Source: Gammaproteobacteria bacterium (GTDB lineage: Bacteria > Pseudomonadota > Gammaproteobacteria > Steroidobacterales > GCA-2729495). From it: 64,000 nt of DNA. Location: assembly GCA_030426355.1 (NCBI GenBank), contig JAUHYQ010000005.1:124001-188000 (forward strand), read 5' to 3'. How positions within the stretch are numbered: the stretch's first letter is position 1; each line of letters opens with the position of its first letter. Below, in pieces: positions 24,593 through 34,497 of the stretch. The position numbers were made by a program, and so were the translations under genes. The notes under the pieces were generated by a model, which saw only the letters and a program-made list of their open reading frames with translations, was not told the origin of the DNA and did no database searches.

Positions 24593-26950
24593 CTATCTTT
24601 CGTAAATGGTGCCTGTTGCCAGCCCTTCATCGGCATTAACGACATTATTGCTTTGGGCAGCCACTCTAAGCGTAAATTTCTCGGTACCTTCGTTTAACCC
24701 ATCTTCGTGCAGTTTCACAAAAATCGTCTTCTGCGTACTTCCTGCGGGGATGATCCGGATTCCACGCTTGCTCTCGAAGTCCTGATCTTCTGTGGCGCTA
24801 CCATTAATTGTCGTAATGTTAATTCTGACGTCGTTTTGTGTGGGGCTCGACAGCTTGACCTTGAATCTTGCATACCCGCCCTCAACGCCAGCCGCGTTCC
24901 CTATTGTGAGCCGCGCCTTATTGTCCAGATCATCGTTGTCAACAATTATGCCCAGGGCTTCGGATTTTCCATCAGTGAGCTTTGCGTTGGTGGGGTTTGA
25001 CAATCTAAGCCGTAGCTTTTCATTGAGTTCGATCGTTTCGTCATCAACAGTTTGTACCCAGATGGTTCTTTCAGTTTGGCCAGCAGCCAGCATGCGAGGA
25101 CCACCTTTCGGCAAGTAATCATCTGGCGAATTAGCCGTGCCATCAATTGTCTGGACATTAAAGGTAACATTATCGGGCGTTGGCTTAGACAGCTTCACTT
25201 TGAACTTTAGGTAGTTCCCCTCCTTGGCGGACGGTCGGTTGTCAATGCTCAATAGTGCTGGCTGCGTATCGGCTCGGCGCAATACAAATATACTGAAGCT
25301 GTTTTCAGGCCGGTCATATAAACGCAGCAAAATGTCACCGCGATTGTTAATCGCCGTGACCTCGGGTAGTTCGTAACCACCAAGGTCGACCAAATCATCG
25401 ATAAATAATGTAGGGCCATTTGCCGGCTTAACAAAGGCCCTCCCAAGGTAGTGGCCAGTCATGTCCCCCGCATCATTCAATCCGATTATGCGTTCAGTGG
25501 CGTAAATTCTTGATTCTGTGCCTTCCGATGTGCGGGTCAATCCATAGCTGACACGTGGCTGGCACTCAGGGTTGCACTCGATACGATGAAAATTTCCAAA
25601 GGCGCCATAGATGCTGTGTAGTCCATACCATTGATAGCCAACTTCGATTTCGTTGATATCGAAGTTGGACCAGCTGCCACTGGTAAACGCGCGCGGCTCG
25701 CCGTCAATCACCAGATCAGTGGCCCAGTCCGAAGTGACGTCTCCAGGCCCAAACCATGTATAGGCCAGCCAGTTCCCGTTCTGTGCGAGGCCCGTTGGAA
25801 TGGGGGAAGTCAGCTCATCACCGTCTATAGTTTCCGCAGCCCCTTCGGCAGTTAGTAATCCTGCGCCTGGAAAGTGACGGATCGCCGATGTTGGGTCGAG
25901 CCAGCCGGTATACAAAACCGTAATATCTCCGGCATCGTTAATATGGTGGCCAGAGCCGATACGCGAACCTTCCTTACCCGCAGTGCCGGTTGGAAACTCG
26001 AGTTCATGCATTATGTTGTTATTGTACAAAAAGCCAAACCAGCTGCCTCGCTGACTTTGCCTGCTGCCTTCACCCATTGACGTTCCAGCAATATCCCCGG
26101 CATTGTTGATCGAAAATGCGCATGATTCGCCGCTGTTATCGGAATTCAATGTGCCTAGCGAGTGCAAACCAGCGTCGTCAAATAAGAATGCTTTCTGCTC
26201 GCCGCCAAACAGAGTGCAGCCGACAACCTGCCCGAGGTCATTGATATCATTTGCTTCGACCTTAGGCCTTTCATTGCCAGCGCGGACGTGGGTTGCGATG
26301 CGTTCTAGTGTATAAACCGGTGCCGATTGCATTTGCGATATCACATCACCATCAGCAACCGGCCATACTTTCGGATTCGACTGCGGATCCAGGTACGGGG
26401 AATAAAACTCGAACTCGCATTTTTCACCCTCAAACTGATAACTGTTAAATGAGTAGGATGGGCCGAGGGCATTGTCGTAATTTCTGACAACCGGGCCTTC
26501 ATATACGTAGCAGTTTCGGCCAACATTGTGGAAGGGTCCCGTATTCGTAAGGCTGCCTCCATGAGCAACCGATGTATTCCCAAGTGTTTGAGTATAAAGA
26601 TGTTCAAGCTCGCCGCTTGTGCTTCCCAGATTGGGGTTCGACTGATCAGGCAGTCGCCACGACGAAACGCCTAAATGATGCGTGCCACGCAGAAAGTTGA
26701 TTACTTCGAGTTGAGCTTCAGGCGGTCTTAACGCGCTCAAGTAGGCCTGCTTTTCGCCGGTATACAGGTAGTCGGCATTCGCGAGCCAGGTAATATCCAG
26801 CTGAGTATCGTAGTAGGCATCTGCCACTCCGTCGTTATTCAGGTCGCGCGGCTTGAGCGTCGTCTCCCACGTTCCCTGGCCGGGTATCCCGTCTGCAAGC
26901 GCAAGGCTGGACAGGACAAACAGAGCAGCAATTTGTATTGCGGATTTCAC
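24593..26950 (-). CDS. Large secreted protein with DUF1566-like, HAF-repeat and two Calx-beta domains
   Basis: GTG at 26950 is preferred: AGGTGG lies just upstream and it gives a normal signal peptide (MKSAIQIAALFVLSSLALADG); two GTG codons further upstream would add a polar tail. The product has 785 residues. An N-terminal region (D..LDITWLANADY ... SWRLPDQ) resembles Lcl/DUF1566 modules. A middle section has HAF-type repeats (FLFDDAGLHSLGTL ... SINNAGDIAG). Two tandem Calx-beta domains of about 105 residues form the C-terminus (INGSATEDQDFE... / IDGTANSPDDYL...), likely binding calcium. No membrane anchor is visible at the C-terminus. It is probably an extracellular or surface protein; function unknown. 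Confidence 0.8.
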   Translation of the reverse strand: MKSAIQIAALFVLSSLALADGIPGQGTWETTLKPRDLNNDGVADAYYDTQLDITWLANADYLYTGEKQAYLSALRPPEAQLEVINFLRGTHHLGVSSWRLPDQSNPNLGSTSGELEHLYTQTLGNTSVAHGGSLTNTGPFHNVGRNCYVYEGPVVRNYDNALGPSYSFNSYQFEGEKCEFEFYSPYLDPQSNPKVWPVADGDVISQMQSAPVYTLERIATHVRAGNERPKVEANDINDLGQVVGCTLFGGEQKAFLFDDAGLHSLGTLNSDNSGESCAFSINNAGDIAGTSMGEGSRQSQRGSWFGFLYNNNIMHELEFPTGTAGKEGSRIGSGHHINDAGDITVLYTGWLDPTSAIRHFPGAGLLTAEGAAETIDGDELTSPIPTGLAQNGNWLAYTWFGPGDVTSDWATDLVIDGEPRAFTSGSWSNFDINEIEVGYQWYGLHSIYGAFGNFHRIECNPECQPRVSYGLTRTSEGTESRIYATERIIGLNDAGDMTGHYLGRAFVKPANGPTLFIDDLVDLGGYELPEVTAINNRGDILLRLYDRPENSFSIFVLRRADTQPALLSIDNRPSAKEGNYLKFKVKLSKPTPDNVTFNVQTIDGTANSPDDYLPKGGPRMLAAGQTERTIWVQTVDDETIELNEKLRLRLSNPTNAKLTDGKSEALGIIVDNDDLDNKARLTIGNAAGVEGGYARFKVKLSSPTQNDVRINITTINGSATEDQDFESKRGIRIIPAGSTQKTIFVKLHEDGLNEGTEKFTLRVAAQSNNVVNADEGLATGTIYER

Positions 26951-27040
26951 TGGCGCCACCTGTGGCACAGGACAAGTCGATTGTCACTATACCCTTTCAT
27001 CGCCAAAGGAAGTAGGCGACATAATCTGCCGCTTGATTGC

Positions 27041-27601
27041 TTAAAGCATGTCAGCCAGATAGTCGCGCGTGATCCGCTCCCATTCCAGCTTCAACCAAGG
27101 CGTATAGATTTCACCGTTGGTTTCGATCTCGCGCGTCAGTTCCGCCGGACTGATAAATCTCCAGTCAGCAATTTCGTCGGGATTGATATCGAGCATCCCG
27201 TCAAAGTGCCCGGCGAAGACCCAGCAGTTCTCGTGTTCCGAACCGACATCACCAAACCGGGCCTGATAAACAAACTTGTACAAATAGCGCAACTCGCATG
27301 TAACGCCGAGTTCTTCGCGAATCCGCCGGTGCGCCGCATCCAGCGTGTCTTCGCCAAGGCGTGGGTGGCTGCAGCAACTGTTAGCCCAGTACCCACCCCA
27401 AAGCATTTTATTCGCGCTGCGTTGCTGAATCAGCAGTTCGCCAGCAGGATTAAACAAAAAAACCGAGAACGCCCGGTGCAGCAGTCCGTCACCGAGATGA
27501 CAATCGACTTTTTCCTCTGCGCCAATTTCATTGTCGTCCGCATCGACCAGTATCAAAGTGTCGGGTATGTTCTTGCGCGCGGCAGCATTGACGATGCTCA
27601 A
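27041..27601 (-). CDS. idi: Isopentenyl-diphosphate delta-isomerase, type I
   Basis: 186 residues of the Nudix-fold type I enzyme, converting IPP to DMAPP. Signature SCCSHPR holds the catalytic Cys and a metal-binding His; the Nudix-like helix has IREELG, and a later EHENCW carries the second glutamate pair. The start is TTG at 27601, overlapping the TGA of the upstream HMG-CoA reductase-mevalonate kinase gene (TTGA), with GGAGG nine bases before it. This coupling places it in a mevalonate-pathway operon, where an isomerase is essential because that route yields only IPP. Confidence 0.95.
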   Translation of the reverse strand: MSIVNAAARKNIPDTLILVDADDNEIGAEEKVDCHLGDGLLHRAFSVFLFNPAGELLIQQRSANKMLWGGYWANSCCSHPRLGEDTLDAAHRRIREELGVTCELRYLYKFVYQARFGDVGSEHENCWVFAGHFDGMLDINPDEIADWRFISPAELTREIETNGEIYTPWLKLEWERITRDYLADML

Positions 27602-29862
27602 GTCAGCGAACCTCCGACGGTAAAGGCCAGCGCTTCATAGCCGCGTGCTTCCAGCGCCTTGCGAATATTCTGGCTGGCAGTCTCGTCACTTGCTAGTGCA
27701 AGCATGGCTCCGCCGCCGCCACCGCCGGTCAGTTTCGCACCCAGTGCGCCGGCTGCACGTGCTATTTCAATCAGCTTCTCGAGTTCCGGTGTGGATACCT
27801 GCAAGGCATTCAGCAACCCCTGATTAATATTCATCAACTCGCCCAGATCACGCAGACGGCCTTCCTGTATGGCTGATACAGCCTGCAGAGCGAGGCTGTC
27901 AATGTCATCAAACATCTTGTCGTAAACTTTTGGCAGCCGTTCATAGGCGGAACGCACATTACCCACCGTTTTGGCGGTAAGTCCCTGTGTATGTGTCATG
28001 CCGACCACCACTGAAAGCGGCTCAGGAACATTCAGCAGTTCGATCAGCGGTGGCACACCGGTGCGATACACCAGGGGTTTGCCGTAAGTGGCCAAAGTGT
28101 TGTCGATCCCGCTCGGTTGACCGTGGGCAATCTGTTCAGATTTGAACGCGAGTTTGTTGACGGCATCGTCGTCAAGGCCGAGCTTGAAATGAATATTCAG
28201 GGCGCGAACAATGGCCACTGCCAGCGCGGCCGAGCCGCCCAGCCCCATGCCACGCGGCACATCGGGGAATACCTCGATGCGCATACCGCGCTTGGCCAGG
28301 CCCAGCTCATCCAGAATGGTGCCCGCAGCTTTTTCAAACGAACGCCGCTGTTCCGGTGGTTTGGCGAGTTCGTACTCAACACCCCAACGAGGGATCAGTA
28401 ATTGCACCCCGCGGTCGGTGTCTTCAATAAGCGCCCGCATAGTCAGTGGTAAAGGGCAGGCTATGGCATGCCGTCCGTAAACCACTGAGTGCTCACCCAG
28501 CAGGATGACTTTGCCATACCCGACACCCAGTTCCGCATCGGTTTTTTGCAGGATTTTTGATGAGGCACCCGGCGCCGATTCCTGCAGTTCCTCAAGAATT
28601 TGTTTGGCACGCCATACTTTGATGTCGCCACTGCGCAGCAGCCGCTCGAGCACTTTTTCAAACATCTGCGGCGGCGTGCCCGCGGCTTTCACCACGGTAC
28701 GCGCATGCAGGGTCATATGGCCCTGTTGTATGCCGTCGGTAGCCAGCGCGCGAAGTGCCGAAAAGTTCTGGGCCAGCCCCGCCGCAGCCATAACTTCGGC
28801 CAGTTCGGTGGCCGACTGCACGCCCAGCAAGCGCAAATTAACCGCGACACTGGGATTTGATTCCAGCGGACCGCCGACCGTGCCTACTTTAAGCGGCAGC
28901 TCAATCTCCCCGTGCAGGTTGCCGTCCTCATCCTGCTGCCAACGGGACAGCGCTGTGTACCGACCGCTGGAACTGGCCCATGCATGCGCGCCGGCTTCGA
29001 GTGCACGCCAGTCATTGCCTGTCGCCAAAGCTATAGCATCAATGCCATTCATGATCCCCTTGTTGTGCGTGGCAGCCCGGTACGGGTCCACCTGGGCAAA
29101 ATCCGAGGCGATGATGATGCCATCCCGAACCTGTTCGCCTGTGTAGCCGCGCCCTTCGAGCACCTCCACCGGTAAGGTCACTTCGGCGCGCGCTACGGCG
29201 CGATCGGTAAGGTTAGAAAGAATGCGCAGAAACACTTTCCCTTCGGTCAGGGATTCAATCAGTGAAGCGACACCTTCGCACATGCCGTTGACCAGATTTG
29301 CGCCCATCGCGTCACGAGTGTCGACGTGCAGATGGATTACCAGCATTTCGCCATCAAAGGACGGCAGGGGATACGTGCGCATGTCGAGGCCGACAGCCCC
29401 GCCACCTCGCGCCACCATGCGCGGGTGAAAACTGTTGGCGAGGTCTATTACCTTTTGTTTGGCAGATTCGACGGCATTAATCGCGGCATCCATGTCAGGG
29501 ATTTCCACCACCTGGATCTGACCGGTTAGAACGGGGTCGGTGGAGGAGGTGCGATAGCCGCCGGTGGCGCGCGCCATTTTTGCGGCCGAACTGATAGCGG
29601 CAACAATGGAGGGTTCTTCCACAACCATCGGAATGACATAGTCTTTCGAGTTGATCAGGAAATTGAGGCCGAGGCCGATCGGCAGACCCATTACGCCGAT
29701 CACATTCTCAATCATTTTGTCGGCGGCGTTCAGTCCCAGCGTGTGCTTTCCACTCAGCAGGGTCTGATAGTCTGCGTCGCTTAGCAGACCGCGTTCATGC
29801 ACGGCCGCAACGCGTTCATCGACTGACATCTTGTAAAAGTGCGGAATCCTTGATCGATCCAC
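27598..29862 (-). CDS. Fused class II HMG-CoA reductase and mevalonate kinase
   Basis: GTG 29862 has GGAG seven bases upstream and gives 754 aa (another GTG lies 18 nt further up). Residues 1-420 are a class II HMG-CoA reductase: ENVIG (52-56), EEPS with Glu83, DAMGAN (184-189), Lys268 in HNKGIMNGID, Asp284, and His382 in GHM; these align within one residue of Glu83, Lys267, Asp283 and His381 of the Pseudomonas mevalonii enzyme. After a short helical linker, residues 446-754 form a GHMP mevalonate kinase: GKVILLGEHSVVYG (450-463), PRGMGLGGSAA (536-546), catalytic Asp587 in PSGID, and a six-Gly loop (713-718). Both active sites look complete, so HMG-CoA would go to 5-phosphomevalonate on one chain. 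The pathway's other genes are not in the window. Confidence 0.95.
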   Translation of the reverse strand: MDRSRIPHFYKMSVDERVAAVHERGLLSDADYQTLLSGKHTLGLNAADKMIENVIGVMGLPIGLGLNFLINSKDYVIPMVVEEPSIVAAISSAAKMARATGGYRTSSTDPVLTGQIQVVEIPDMDAAINAVESAKQKVIDLANSFHPRMVARGGGAVGLDMRTYPLPSFDGEMLVIHLHVDTRDAMGANLVNGMCEGVASLIESLTEGKVFLRILSNLTDRAVARAEVTLPVEVLEGRGYTGEQVRDGIIIASDFAQVDPYRAATHNKGIMNGIDAIALATGNDWRALEAGAHAWASSSGRYTALSRWQQDEDGNLHGEIELPLKVGTVGGPLESNPSVAVNLRLLGVQSATELAEVMAAAGLAQNFSALRALATDGIQQGHMTLHARTVVKAAGTPPQMFEKVLERLLRSGDIKVWRAKQILEELQESAPGASSKILQKTDAELGVGYGKVILLGEHSVVYGRHAIACPLPLTMRALIEDTDRGVQLLIPRWGVEYELAKPPEQRRSFEKAAGTILDELGLAKRGMRIEVFPDVPRGMGLGGSAALAVAIVRALNIHFKLGLDDDAVNKLAFKSEQIAHGQPSGIDNTLATYGKPLVYRTGVPPLIELLNVPEPLSVVVGMTHTQGLTAKTVGNVRSAYERLPKVYDKMFDDIDSLALQAVSAIQEGRLRDLGELMNINQGLLNALQVSTPELEKLIEIARAAGALGAKLTGGGGGGAMLALASDETASQNIRKALEARGYEALAFTVGGSLT

Positions 29863-29994
29863 GGGATGGCTCCATGCCACTGGTTAACAGCGCAATTGTC
29901 CCTGCTGCAAGCGGACTCTGCAAATGGGATGCAATCGGGCCGGTCGGATGCCACAATCGGCGCCATACAAGGTTTGCAGGCACTCTCCTGACCT

Positions 29995-31704
29995 ATGGAA
30001 GCTTTCTGGTTAAAGCACTACCCCGACGGGGTACCGCATAAATTGGAGCTGGATCCGGCGCGCACGCTGATTGACTGGATTGAGACAGCGCTGGCGCGCT
30101 GGCACGATCGTCCGGCGTTCACCAATATGGGGCATAACCTGAGCTTTGGTGAGGTCGACGAGCTCAGTCAGCGATTCGCGGCGTATCTGCAAACCGAGGC
30201 AGGCTTGCAGCAGGGTGATCGTGTGGCCCTGATGTTACCGAATCTGCTGCAGTATCCAATCGCGCTACTGGGGTGTCTGCGGGCCGGCATGGTTGTGGTC
30301 AACGTCAATCCGCTCTACACCGCTCGGGAGCTTAAGCACCAACTGCAGGACTCGGGCGCAAAAGCCATTGTCATTTTTGCCGGCAGCGCCCATGTGCTCA
30401 CTAAAGTCATCGCAGAAACGAACGTCGAACATACGGTGATTACAAACGTAGGCGACATGCTGCCAGCACCTAAACGACAGTTGGTGAACCTCTATGTGCG
30501 CTACATTCGGCGCGGCATCCGCTCGTATCGTCTGCCAAAGGCGAGACCCTTCGACGCCATTATGGCGTGTGCGGCCAATGGCTACGTGCGTCCACGGGAG
30601 ATGCGCGGCAGCGATCTGGCGGCACTGCAATACACCGGTGGTACTACCGGGATAGCAAAAGGTGCCATGCTGAGTCACGGTAATTTGCTGGCGAATGTCG
30701 CACAGGTGAATAGCTGGTTTGGCCGCAATGATGTACCCGGCGCGGAGATCATTATCACAGCCTTGCCTCTGTATCACGTCTATGCACTGACCGTGAATTG
30801 TCTGGCATTTTTTGAGAAGGGCGGTCTCAACGTGCTCATAACGGATCCGCGCGATACGGCGGGCATGATCAAAGAGATGTCGCGCTGGCCCTTTACCGCC
30901 ATTACCGGGGTCAATACCTTGTTTCAGAGCCTGGTGCATCACCCCGATTTTTCGCGCCTCAATTTTTCCACGCTCAAAGTCGTTTCGGCGGGCGGCATGG
31001 CGATGCAAAAGGCAACGGCGCTGATATGGACCGAAATCACCGGTACCTGCGTGATTGAGGGTTACGGCTTGTCCGAAACATCGCCGGTGGTGTCATCAAA
31101 CCCCCTGGATTTGGGCGAGTTCAACGGCAGCGTCGGGTTGCCCTTGCCGAACACGGAAGTTTCCGTGCGTGACGATGATGGTAATGAAGTGCCGGTGGGT
31201 GAGGCGGGCGAATTATTCGTGCGTGGGCCGCAGGTCATGTTGGGGTATTGGAATAAGCCGGATGCAACAGCAGCGGTATTGTCCGCCGACGGGTTTCTTG
31301 AAACCGGTGATATGGCGACCATTGATGAACGCGGCTACATACGCATCGTGGATCGCAAGAAAGACATCATCATAGTATCGGGCTTTAATGTGTATCCGAA
31401 TGAAATTGAAGACGTGGTGACCACCCACCCCGATGTGATGGAAGCCGCCGTCATTGGTGTATCGGGTGACGACTCTGGTGAGGCCGTAAAGTTGTTTGCA
31501 GTAAAACGCGCCGGCGCCGATTTAAGCCCCAAGCGCTTGCGCCGCTGGTGCAAGCAGAACATGACCCCGTACAAAGTGCCTACCTACGTTGAGTTTGTCA
31601 GCTCGCTGCCGAAATCCAACGTTGGCAAAGTCTTGCGGCGTGAGCTACGTCAGAAGGACGAGCAAGCGTGGGCAGGCAAAACGCGGGAACCCACGGGCTC
31701 CTAG
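29995..31704 (+). CDS. fadD: Long-chain fatty acid-CoA ligase FadD
   Basis: 569 residues. It activates fatty acids with ATP to acyl-adenylate and then acyl-CoA. The adenylate-forming motifs are present: YTGGTTGIAKG (from residue 213), EGYGLSETSPV, and the hinge DRKKDIIIVSGFNVYPNEIE, followed by the C-terminal lysine in PKSNVGKVLRREL. It is divergent from the HMG-CoA reductase fusion, 132 bp away, and near crotonase and MaoC genes, so fatty acid breakdown is a fair guess. Confidence 0.93.
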   Translation: MEAFWLKHYPDGVPHKLELDPARTLIDWIETALARWHDRPAFTNMGHNLSFGEVDELSQRFAAYLQTEAGLQQGDRVALMLPNLLQYPIALLGCLRAGMVVVNVNPLYTARELKHQLQDSGAKAIVIFAGSAHVLTKVIAETNVEHTVITNVGDMLPAPKRQLVNLYVRYIRRGIRSYRLPKARPFDAIMACAANGYVRPREMRGSDLAALQYTGGTTGIAKGAMLSHGNLLANVAQVNSWFGRNDVPGAEIIITALPLYHVYALTVNCLAFFEKGGLNVLITDPRDTAGMIKEMSRWPFTAITGVNTLFQSLVHHPDFSRLNFSTLKVVSAGGMAMQKATALIWTEITGTCVIEGYGLSETSPVVSSNPLDLGEFNGSVGLPLPNTEVSVRDDDGNEVPVGEAGELFVRGPQVMLGYWNKPDATAAVLSADGFLETGDMATIDERGYIRIVDRKKDIIIVSGFNVYPNEIEDVVTTHPDVMEAAVIGVSGDDSGEAVKLFAVKRAGADLSPKRLRRWCKQNMTPYKVPTYVEFVSSLPKSNVGKVLRRELRQKDEQAWAGKTREPTGS

Positions 31705-33064: not shown

Positions 33065-34384
33065 TCAGGCGGTTGCCAGTTTGGTGACCCCGTGGCGCAG
33101 CCGCACGTAGATCGCGAACAGCAGGATGGCGCTACTGCCAATACCCATCATCAAAAAGGGGCCGCCGTTGGTCCAGATATCAAACAGATAGCCGCCGAGT
33201 ACCGTGCTAACAAGGGTTCCTACCGAGCCGAAAAAATTGAAGGCCCCGAGCGTGGAGCCGGTAATGCGCGGATCGGCTTCCTGGCCAATGAGCGTTTGTC
33301 CGGAAATGACCGACGTCACCATGCCACAGCCGAGCACTATGCCAACCGGGACGGCCATCCCCAGCAACGGATTTGCCAGGCTGCCAAACCCAAGATAGCC
33401 GACTGCACCTAATGCCGACGCGATGATGAGCCCGGTTACGCGGTCGATCCGATCACTGAGCACGCCAAAAAGTGCCGCAACGGGCAGCGGTGCGACGAAT
33501 ATCATGGCCAGTAATATGCCGGCATCGGCTTGCGCCTCGCCTGCCGACATGCCCAGTGCGATGCCGGCCTGCTGTGCCCAAAGCGACAGATAGGCGCCCA
33601 CCACCACGTTGTCGCCCCGGGCGATAAATGCGCTGGCATAGGCGAGTGCAACGCGCGGGTTGCGCGCGGCACCAAACCCTTCCTTCATCAGCGTTGTCAG
33701 CGGAATCTTCTGATGTTCCAGTTTTAACTGTTCGCCACGCAGCCCCAGAATTACAACCGTGGCTGAGAGCAGGCTGACCATGCCAACGCCGGTAATGGCC
33801 ATCCGGCCGGCAACCACAGGGTCGAACCCGGCTGAGGTCAGCCAGTTAATGGCTTGTCCGCCGACACCTGACAGTATGGCAAGGCCAAGTGCATTCAGTA
33901 CCGAGCCCAGTGCCACGAGTTTGCCGCGTGAAATTTCCTGCGGATAATCGGTCAGCACAGTCGTGAATGTGCAGATCACGGCAGCCGCACCGACGGCGAA
34001 AATCGCGCGAAAGGCGGTGAGCATCATCACCGAGGTGGCGAAGGGGTAGGCCATATAACCTGCCGCGATCATCACGTATCCAATAACGAGTACCGGGCGT
34101 CTGCCGATCCGATCTGCCAGCGCACCGAAGGGCCCCACCAGGCTGATCAGCACCACTTCATGCACCAGCCCCATTTTGGCGACTACTCTGCCGTGCTCAT
34201 CCGCCGGAATGCCCAGCATGACTTCAAGCACATAGGGCTGCTGAAAATTCAGAAAAACCAGCAGGCCAATGCTGATGAACAACACGTAGAGCAGCGTCCA
34301 GCCGTTGAGCCGGGTGACACCGGGTTGCAGCCAGATATAGCCTAAGCGCGTACCGCGCGGGTCAGGCCCGGTCAGTGAGTTCAT
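33065..34384 (-). CDS. MFS permease
   Basis: 439 residues if started at ATG 34384 (MNSLTGPD); the frame is open for 33 codons more, but that stretch looks unlike a transporter N-terminus. Twelve hydrophobic segments and motif A (GALADRIGRRPVL) place it in the major facilitator superfamily. It is the unit upstream of the MaoC/crotonase pair on the same strand (93 bp gap) and diverges from the pterin dehydratase gene. Substrate unknown. Confidence 0.85.
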   Translation of the reverse strand: MNSLTGPDPRGTRLGYIWLQPGVTRLNGWTLLYVLFISIGLLVFLNFQQPYVLEVMLGIPADEHGRVVAKMGLVHEVVLISLVGPFGALADRIGRRPVLVIGYVMIAAGYMAYPFATSVMMLTAFRAIFAVGAAAVICTFTTVLTDYPQEISRGKLVALGSVLNALGLAILSGVGGQAINWLTSAGFDPVVAGRMAITGVGMVSLLSATVVILGLRGEQLKLEHQKIPLTTLMKEGFGAARNPRVALAYASAFIARGDNVVVGAYLSLWAQQAGIALGMSAGEAQADAGILLAMIFVAPLPVAALFGVLSDRIDRVTGLIIASALGAVGYLGFGSLANPLLGMAVPVGIVLGCGMVTSVISGQTLIGQEADPRITGSTLGAFNFFGSVGTLVSTVLGGYLFDIWTNGGPFLMMGIGSSAILLFAIYVRLRHGVTKLATA

Positions 34385-34497
34385 AGTCTGCTTCTTGTTT
34401 AGTATTAGGTAGGATTCGACGAAAGTCGCCAAGGCGATGCAGCAAAGGAACGAATTCCAGCATGGGTTATGCTGCGTCCACAAGTGAGGAAAAAATC

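Follow-up and report, generated by a model that had tools for sequence, protein, structure and literature searches.

The window analysed here is a stretch of 64,000 nucleotides from a gammaproteobacterial genome (GenBank assembly GCA_030426355.1, contig JAUHYQ010000005.1, positions 124,001 to 188,000). It encodes a class II 3-hydroxy-3-methylglutaryl-CoA (HMG-CoA) reductase (HMGR) fused in one chain to a mevalonate kinase (MVK) of the GHMP type, followed by idi. This fusion is real and widespread and very probably a biosynthetic bifunctional enzyme, in which domains of known enzymes are combined in a new way. A scan of a contig collection returned 357 candidate stretches, 338 of which encode a relative; the best 80 of these 338 were kept and examined, retrieval and ranking both relying on the fused query. 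Both domains lie in one stop-to-stop frame in all 80, and an idi frame follows the fusion in every one of them. Counts below refer to these 80 relatives, to the 81 loci obtained by adding the window, or to the 91 fusions of a larger alignment set.

Domains and catalytic residues

The fusion frame (27598-29880, minus strand) is free of interruptions, and its farthest GTG, at 29880, would give 760 residues. The GTG at 29862 is a plausible start because a GGAG lies 7 nt upstream and the proteins of the relatives begin near the same residue. The original prediction had described a single frame of 754 residues with complete reductase and kinase in one chain; this frame is the one from GTG 29862 to the stop, and both halves exceed curated equivalog cut-offs. 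In NCBIfam, the HMGR half reaches 413.8 bits with the class II model TIGR00532 (cut-off 259.95), the kinase half 243.9 bits with the mevalonate kinase model TIGR00549 (cut-off 163.05). Pfam adds HMG-CoA_red (residues 20-393, 360.3 bits, cut-off 27), GHMP_kinases_N (67 bits) and GHMP_kinases_C (66.5 bits). A scan for promoters and terminators gave signals no commoner than in shuffled sequences. To judge from the sequence, the gene product is most likely a bifunctional biosynthetic enzyme, combining class II HMGR with GHMP mevalonate kinase.

Mutated active sites, which would have spoken against two working domains, are absent at the residues checked. E89, K274, D290 and H388 of the HMGR half are invariant in 91 of 91 fusions and align with E83, K267, D283 and H381, the catalytic residues of the Pseudomonas mevalonii enzyme. 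K457, S550, E582, D593 and the G719-G724 run of the kinase half are invariant in 81 of 81; their catalytic roles are presumably those known from rat MVK. Residue 549, in the second kinase motif, is Gly in 76 of the 81 fusions and Ser in five.

The closest solved HMGRs by sequence are the standalone NADH-type enzymes of P. mevalonii (1QAX), Delftia (6DIO) and Burkholderia (6P7K), with 47-50% identity in Foldseek and shared catalytic residues. They differ from the fusion in the kinase attached here, in a cofactor helix of the H...R instead of the D...L kind, and in the mevalonate genes of the present genome. For the kinase half, the closest solved structures are the mevalonate kinases of Leishmania major (2HFS, 2.2e-44, 34% in Foldseek) and Methanosarcina mazei (6MDE, 4.2e-40, 32%), both standalone chains unlike the fusion with its variable residue 549. 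The Leishmania enzyme ranks ahead of archaeal kinases and of 2X7I, so the trypanosomatid kinase may have a connection to bacteria.

In MvaE of Enterococcus faecalis, an acetoacetyl-CoA thiolase-HMGR, the thiolase is N-terminal. Here the partner is the next enzyme of the pathway, mevalonate kinase, placed C-terminally, and Pfam finds no thiolase domain in the chain, solely HMG-CoA_red and the two GHMP domains. MvaE is likewise a class II HMGR fused to another mevalonate-step enzyme (PMC13001223); the review names it together with IspDF fusions, and its passages on fused and bifunctional enzymes leave an HMGR-MVK fusion unmentioned. No published description of such a fusion was found in the openly licensed literature, so one may exist elsewhere.

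Linker and predicted structure

The linker measures 14-30 residues across the 81 fusions and has a mean identity to the window of 25%, compared with 69% for the HMGR and 62% for the MVK domain. The search for a conserved docking linker found none. An AlphaFold model built from 65 sequences has a mean predicted local distance difference test (pLDDT) of 84.4 and a predicted template modelling score (pTM) of 0.56. Foldseek with this model retrieves HMGR structures first (6DIO, 48%), then mevalonate kinases (2HFS, 34%). pLDDT falls below 50 at residues 1-6, 53-66, 384-388 and 436-447. The last of these segments lies within the linker, which is predicted to be disordered and would fit a flexible tether; the low values at 53-66 and 384-388, the latter ending at the catalytic His, are a point against the proposed enzyme. 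No fixed arrangement of the two domains is predicted, because the linker stays below pLDDT 50 and pTM is 0.56.

The variable linker length and low linker identity, together with these two scores, agree with domains that are merely tethered for equal dosage, with neither channelling nor mutual regulation, and we lean slightly towards this explanation; the sequence appears to offer nothing that favours channelling over simple tethering. On the other side, none of the 80 kept relatives is split, a hint that the fusion brings more than co-expression, although all 80 were retrieved and ranked with a fused query; and interfaces within an HMGR oligomer are beyond the reach of a monomer model. The C-terminal helical domain of HMGR moves over the active site, and channelling, or a coupling of the kinase to this movement, is possible as a hypothesis. 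With the fusion one could test if an attached kinase renders the reversible reductase step effectively one-way, and for terpenoid engineering it represents a natural two-step enzyme.

Isoprenoid pathway of the genome

The genome that contains the window comprises 2.82 Mb in 11 contigs and is 99.69% complete. The original prediction had called for a search for further mevalonate genes: on contig 3, fadE and ispA lie next to one another with the genes of HMG-CoA synthase (HMGS), phosphomevalonate kinase (PMK) and mevalonate diphosphate decarboxylase (MVD) between them (L086 3674-11116, in the order fadE, HMGS, PMK, MVD, ispA). HMGS, PMK and MVD span L086 6734-10287 and, with idi of the window, all four of these mevalonate-pathway genes are present. 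MVD exceeds its NCBIfam cut-off (251.6 against 171.35). The nearest solved relatives of HMGS are HMG-CoA synthases, those of PMK a 'Lin0012 protein', mevalonate kinases and phosphomevalonate kinases.

The methylerythritol phosphate (MEP) route yielded no match to IspG, IspH or Dxr in the own genome, with matches in 9, 10 and 12 of 14 control genomes, respectively (over the cut-off in 9, 9 and 10). PF00288, by which alone IspE was judged, gives no match beyond the fusion, PMK and MVD, and hence no IspE. A single DXS_N match (22.3 bits) turned out to be a thiamine diphosphate enzyme of another family and was discarded as DXS. A complete MEP pathway without other mevalonate genes would have contradicted the prediction; the genome does have other mevalonate genes, and the search for IspG, IspH, Dxr and IspE found none.

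Two points weigh against a complete mevalonate route. HMGS and PMK remain below their NCBIfam equivalog cut-offs, so that the case for these two steps relies on weaker homology, on gene position and on matches in Pfam; and the MEP negatives cover IspG, IspH, Dxr, IspE and Dxs, with IspD, IspF, DXR-like enzymes and thiolase not searched for. The HMGS and PMK of this lineage may be divergent subfamilies outside current models. On balance the bacterium appears to rely on the mevalonate route instead of the usual bacterial one. The N-terminal class II HMGR, probably using NADPH, would make mevalonate; the C-terminal GHMP kinase, flexibly tethered to the reductase end, would phosphorylate it; PMK and MVD of contig 3, Idi and IspA would finish the route to farnesyl diphosphate. 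Both activities and the direction of flow are what we infer from the genes.

Cofactor helix and direction of the reductase

For class II HMGRs, a motif Dx(V/L)xxxL has been assigned to the NADH type and (H/Y)xSxxxR to the NADPH type (preprint PMC13370337), and in the Ruegeria HMGR an Asp at residue 154 is stated to decide cofactor use (PMC12292504). The cofactor helix of the window, HPRMVAR, does not conform to the NADH-type motif. Position 152 is H in 89 of 91 fusions and position 158 R in all 91, whereas position 154 varies (R 43, N 24, K 23, Q 1; R in the window). D146 and L148 of P. mevalonii align with H152 and R154. An Asp at window position 129 was considered as the NADH-determining residue and dropped, since the alignment with 1QAX puts the site at H152.

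The first site is D in the HMGRs of P. mevalonii, Delftia, Burkholderia and 9V7Y, and also in the standalone HMGRs of three genomes of the class with IspG (G190, G202, G365) and one with a partial IspG match (G295). Conversely, the last site is R in 12 of 12 standalone HMGRs examined from genomes without IspG. From the H152/R158-type helix and this comparison NADPH use is predicted, and the fusion HMGR probably uses NADPH. Three observations fit this prediction poorly: where the NADPH motif has S in third place, the 91 fusions have R, K, N or Q and never S, although the first and last positions agree; two fusions (L124, L128) have Q instead of H at 152; and the standalone HMGR of G065 has the last-site R in a genome that possesses IspG.

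These data also bear on the possibility that the HMGR oxidises mevalonate for catabolism, as in P. mevalonii, and that the kinase is incidental. The matching NCBIfam equivalog carries the name 'degradative', the nearest solved structures are the Delftia, Burkholderia and P. mevalonii enzymes with NAD-type helices, and genes of fadD and an enoyl-CoA hydratase adjoin the fusion. However, PMK, MVD, idi, ispA and HMGS are all present in the genome, in 42 of the 81 loci PMK precedes the fusion on its upstream side, IspG, IspH and Dxr were not found, and the fusion helix is H...R where the standalone HMGRs of G190, G202 and G365 begin with D. Gene context and cofactor helix together make a degradative enzyme very improbable, and it was rejected. 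Biosynthetic use, as proposed originally for a reductase class often called degradative, is supported by the downstream mevalonate genes, the MEP genes not found and the NADPH-type helix residues, all of them read from sequence.

Distribution of the fusion and of IspG

How many lineages share the fusion was pursued in surveys of class, order and phylum, besides the 80 relatives. Isolates among the carriers belong to Wenzhouxiangella, Marinobacter and Litchfieldella; the group consists mostly of uncultured gammaproteobacteria. Two genes joined by an assembly error or a frameshift, the artefact that could have undone the prediction, can be dismissed as next to impossible, since the same fusion stands in one frame on 80 contigs of other genomes, isolates included. 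The operon is present in isolates named Marinobacter gelidimuriae and Litchfieldella qijiaojingensis (L058, L060), for which horizontal transfer is a possible explanation.

In the class survey (369 genomes), 33 genomes match the query; nine matches cover the fusion in full, and in a tenth genome (G181) a contig end truncates it. IspG was searched in 34 chosen genomes of the class and in 396 genomes of the order. It is absent from nine of the ten fusion genomes of the class survey; the tenth, G040, possesses both. In the order survey (396 genomes), 199 genomes match the fusion query at 1e-20 and 185 have IspG: 195 match without IspG, 181 have IspG without a match, four have both and 16 neither. 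The 199 are query matches and were not counted as whole fusions; among the matches listed, most span about residues 8-755. The four genomes with IspG and a query match of extent not established (G584, G706, G710, G756) all belong to family f2, which holds 164 of the 185 IspG genomes of the order. As a single-gene marker, the fusion identifies a gammaproteobacterial group that apparently uses the mevalonate route, within an order whose other families retain IspG.

The phylum survey (398 genomes) gave 16 matches, i.e. the own genome, a whole fusion in G1123 of the same class, and 14 of HMGR type only; no fusion outside the class was seen in this sample. In G909, from a different class of this phylum, one match of HMGR type (G909:C126:72033-73292) lies within an open frame of 1107 aa, possibly a further fusion.

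Origin of the fusion

In a tree of 64 HMGR domains, including 42 of the 91 fused ones after thinning, all 42 fused domains form one clade (support 97/97). Distances of the HMGR and MVK halves correlate with r = 0.90 over the 91 fusions (best of 500 permutations 0.15), as expected if the halves have travelled together. The fusion probably arose once, as we infer from these relationships. The tree has long branches and an arbitrary root, and as it held no standalone MVK it tests a single origin on the HMGR side only. The branching among the fused HMGRs, the clade of NADH type and the Streptococcus pneumoniae HMGR, itself on a long branch, is an open fork, so the exact sister of the fused clade is not settled. 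Standalone HMGRs of class genomes without an IspG match (e.g. L100, L101) are also of class II and share the last-site Arg (12/12); unlike the fused domains they are unfused to MVK, fall into another clade (support 88/45) and have 35-43% identity to the window domain. G016 and G100, where matches ran past a stop, were considered as a split HMGR/MVK precursor and rejected: their loci hold an unfused HMGR and, next after it, a GHMP-like frame without MVK match.

Hopanoid genes near the fusion

In 19 of the 80 relatives, BLAST on the DNA fetched around the locus finds one or more frames resembling HpnA, HpnG, HpnH, HpnN, squalene synthase or hopene cyclase; an HpnH-like frame is present in 16. 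Loci of this type and loci with a fadD neighbour do not overlap. In L060, L104, L070, L074 and others, hopanoid-type genes occur near an MVD-PMK-fusion-idi operon. Over the cut-offs of curated models are HpnH, HpnN and squalene-hopene cyclase in L060 (HpnA below), and HpnA, HpnG, HpnH and squalene-hopene cyclase in L104 (squalene synthase below). L104 is the locus of G040: the fusion operon sits within a hopanoid cluster in a genome that also has a full-length IspG, and G040 is likely a dual-pathway organism. No hopanoid-type frame was found in the window, which the search covered and not the rest of the own genome. In some lineages the fusion cassette may be passed on together with hopanoid synthesis. 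That hopanoid genes are frequent neighbours suggests why some lineages have a mevalonate pathway beside MEP, a reason open to testing.

A joint reading would be that one fusion event made an enzyme that produces and at once traps mevalonate, with an NADPH-type site on an HMGR nearest to NADH-type solved relatives; that the kinase on the C-terminal helical domain of HMGR couples release and capture; and that the cassette, often near hopanoid genes, replaced or joined MEP in several gammaproteobacterial lineages. In this complete form we consider it speculative and rather unlikely.

Gene neighbourhood

The Idi product exceeds the cut-offs of TIGR02150 (144.1 bits, cut-off 105.8) and NF002995 (165.3, cut-off 127). 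As originally described, idi begins on the stop codon of the fusion (Table 1); a start on this stop (ATGA, GTGA or TTGA) is available in 36 of 81 loci, the window counted, and Idi is probably co-translated with the fusion.

Table 1. Features of the fusion locus and pathway genes on contig 3 (positions of the window unless L086 is given)
Feature	Position	Strand	Remarks
HMGR-MVK fusion gene	27598..29862	-	754 aa with GTG 29862 as start; 760 aa if read from GTG 29880, to which the frame is open
Class II HMGR domain	28582..29862	-	residues 7-433 of the 760-aa numbering
Interdomain linker	28516..28581	-	about residues 434-455
Mevalonate kinase (GHMP) domain	27598..28515	-	K457, S550, E582, D593, KLTGGGGGG (716-724)
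idi, type I isopentenyl-diphosphate isomerase	27041..27601	-	TTG start overlaps TGA stop of the fusion (TTGA)
Long-chain acyl-CoA ligase, fadD-like, divergent	29995..31704	+	not a mevalonate gene
HMGS	L086 6734-8191		177.7 bits, NCBIfam equivalog cut-off 360.35; passes both Pfam HMGS cut-offs
PMK	L086 8213-9256		92.0 bits, NCBIfam equivalog cut-off 165.7; passes GHMP_kinases_N cut-off

A divergent fadD adjoins the fusion in 37 of 81 loci (the window and 36 of the 80 relatives). Loci with PMK upstream usually have the order MVD-PMK-fusion-idi, and no locus among the 81 shows the fadD and PMK arrangements together; in L005 and L073 the upstream DNA is too short to classify. L102 and L103, from the same order as the window genome, possess ispA, MVD, PMK, fusion, idi, HMGS and fadE in succession. 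Contig 3 of the own genome has this gene order, but the fusion and idi are missing between PMK and HMGS. Most simply read, this gene order seems to go back to an ancestral cluster ispA-MVD-PMK-fusion-idi-HMGS, out of which the fusion and idi would have moved as a pair to their place beside fadD in the family of the window.

Elsewhere in the window, Calx-beta domains and a HAF repeat occur in a protein of 791 aa (24593-26968, minus strand), of which no counterpart was seen in the DNA examined around the 80 relatives. A transporter of the major facilitator superfamily (33065-34483, minus strand) has its best NCBIfam matches, below cut-off, with the magnetosome transporters MamH and MamZ.

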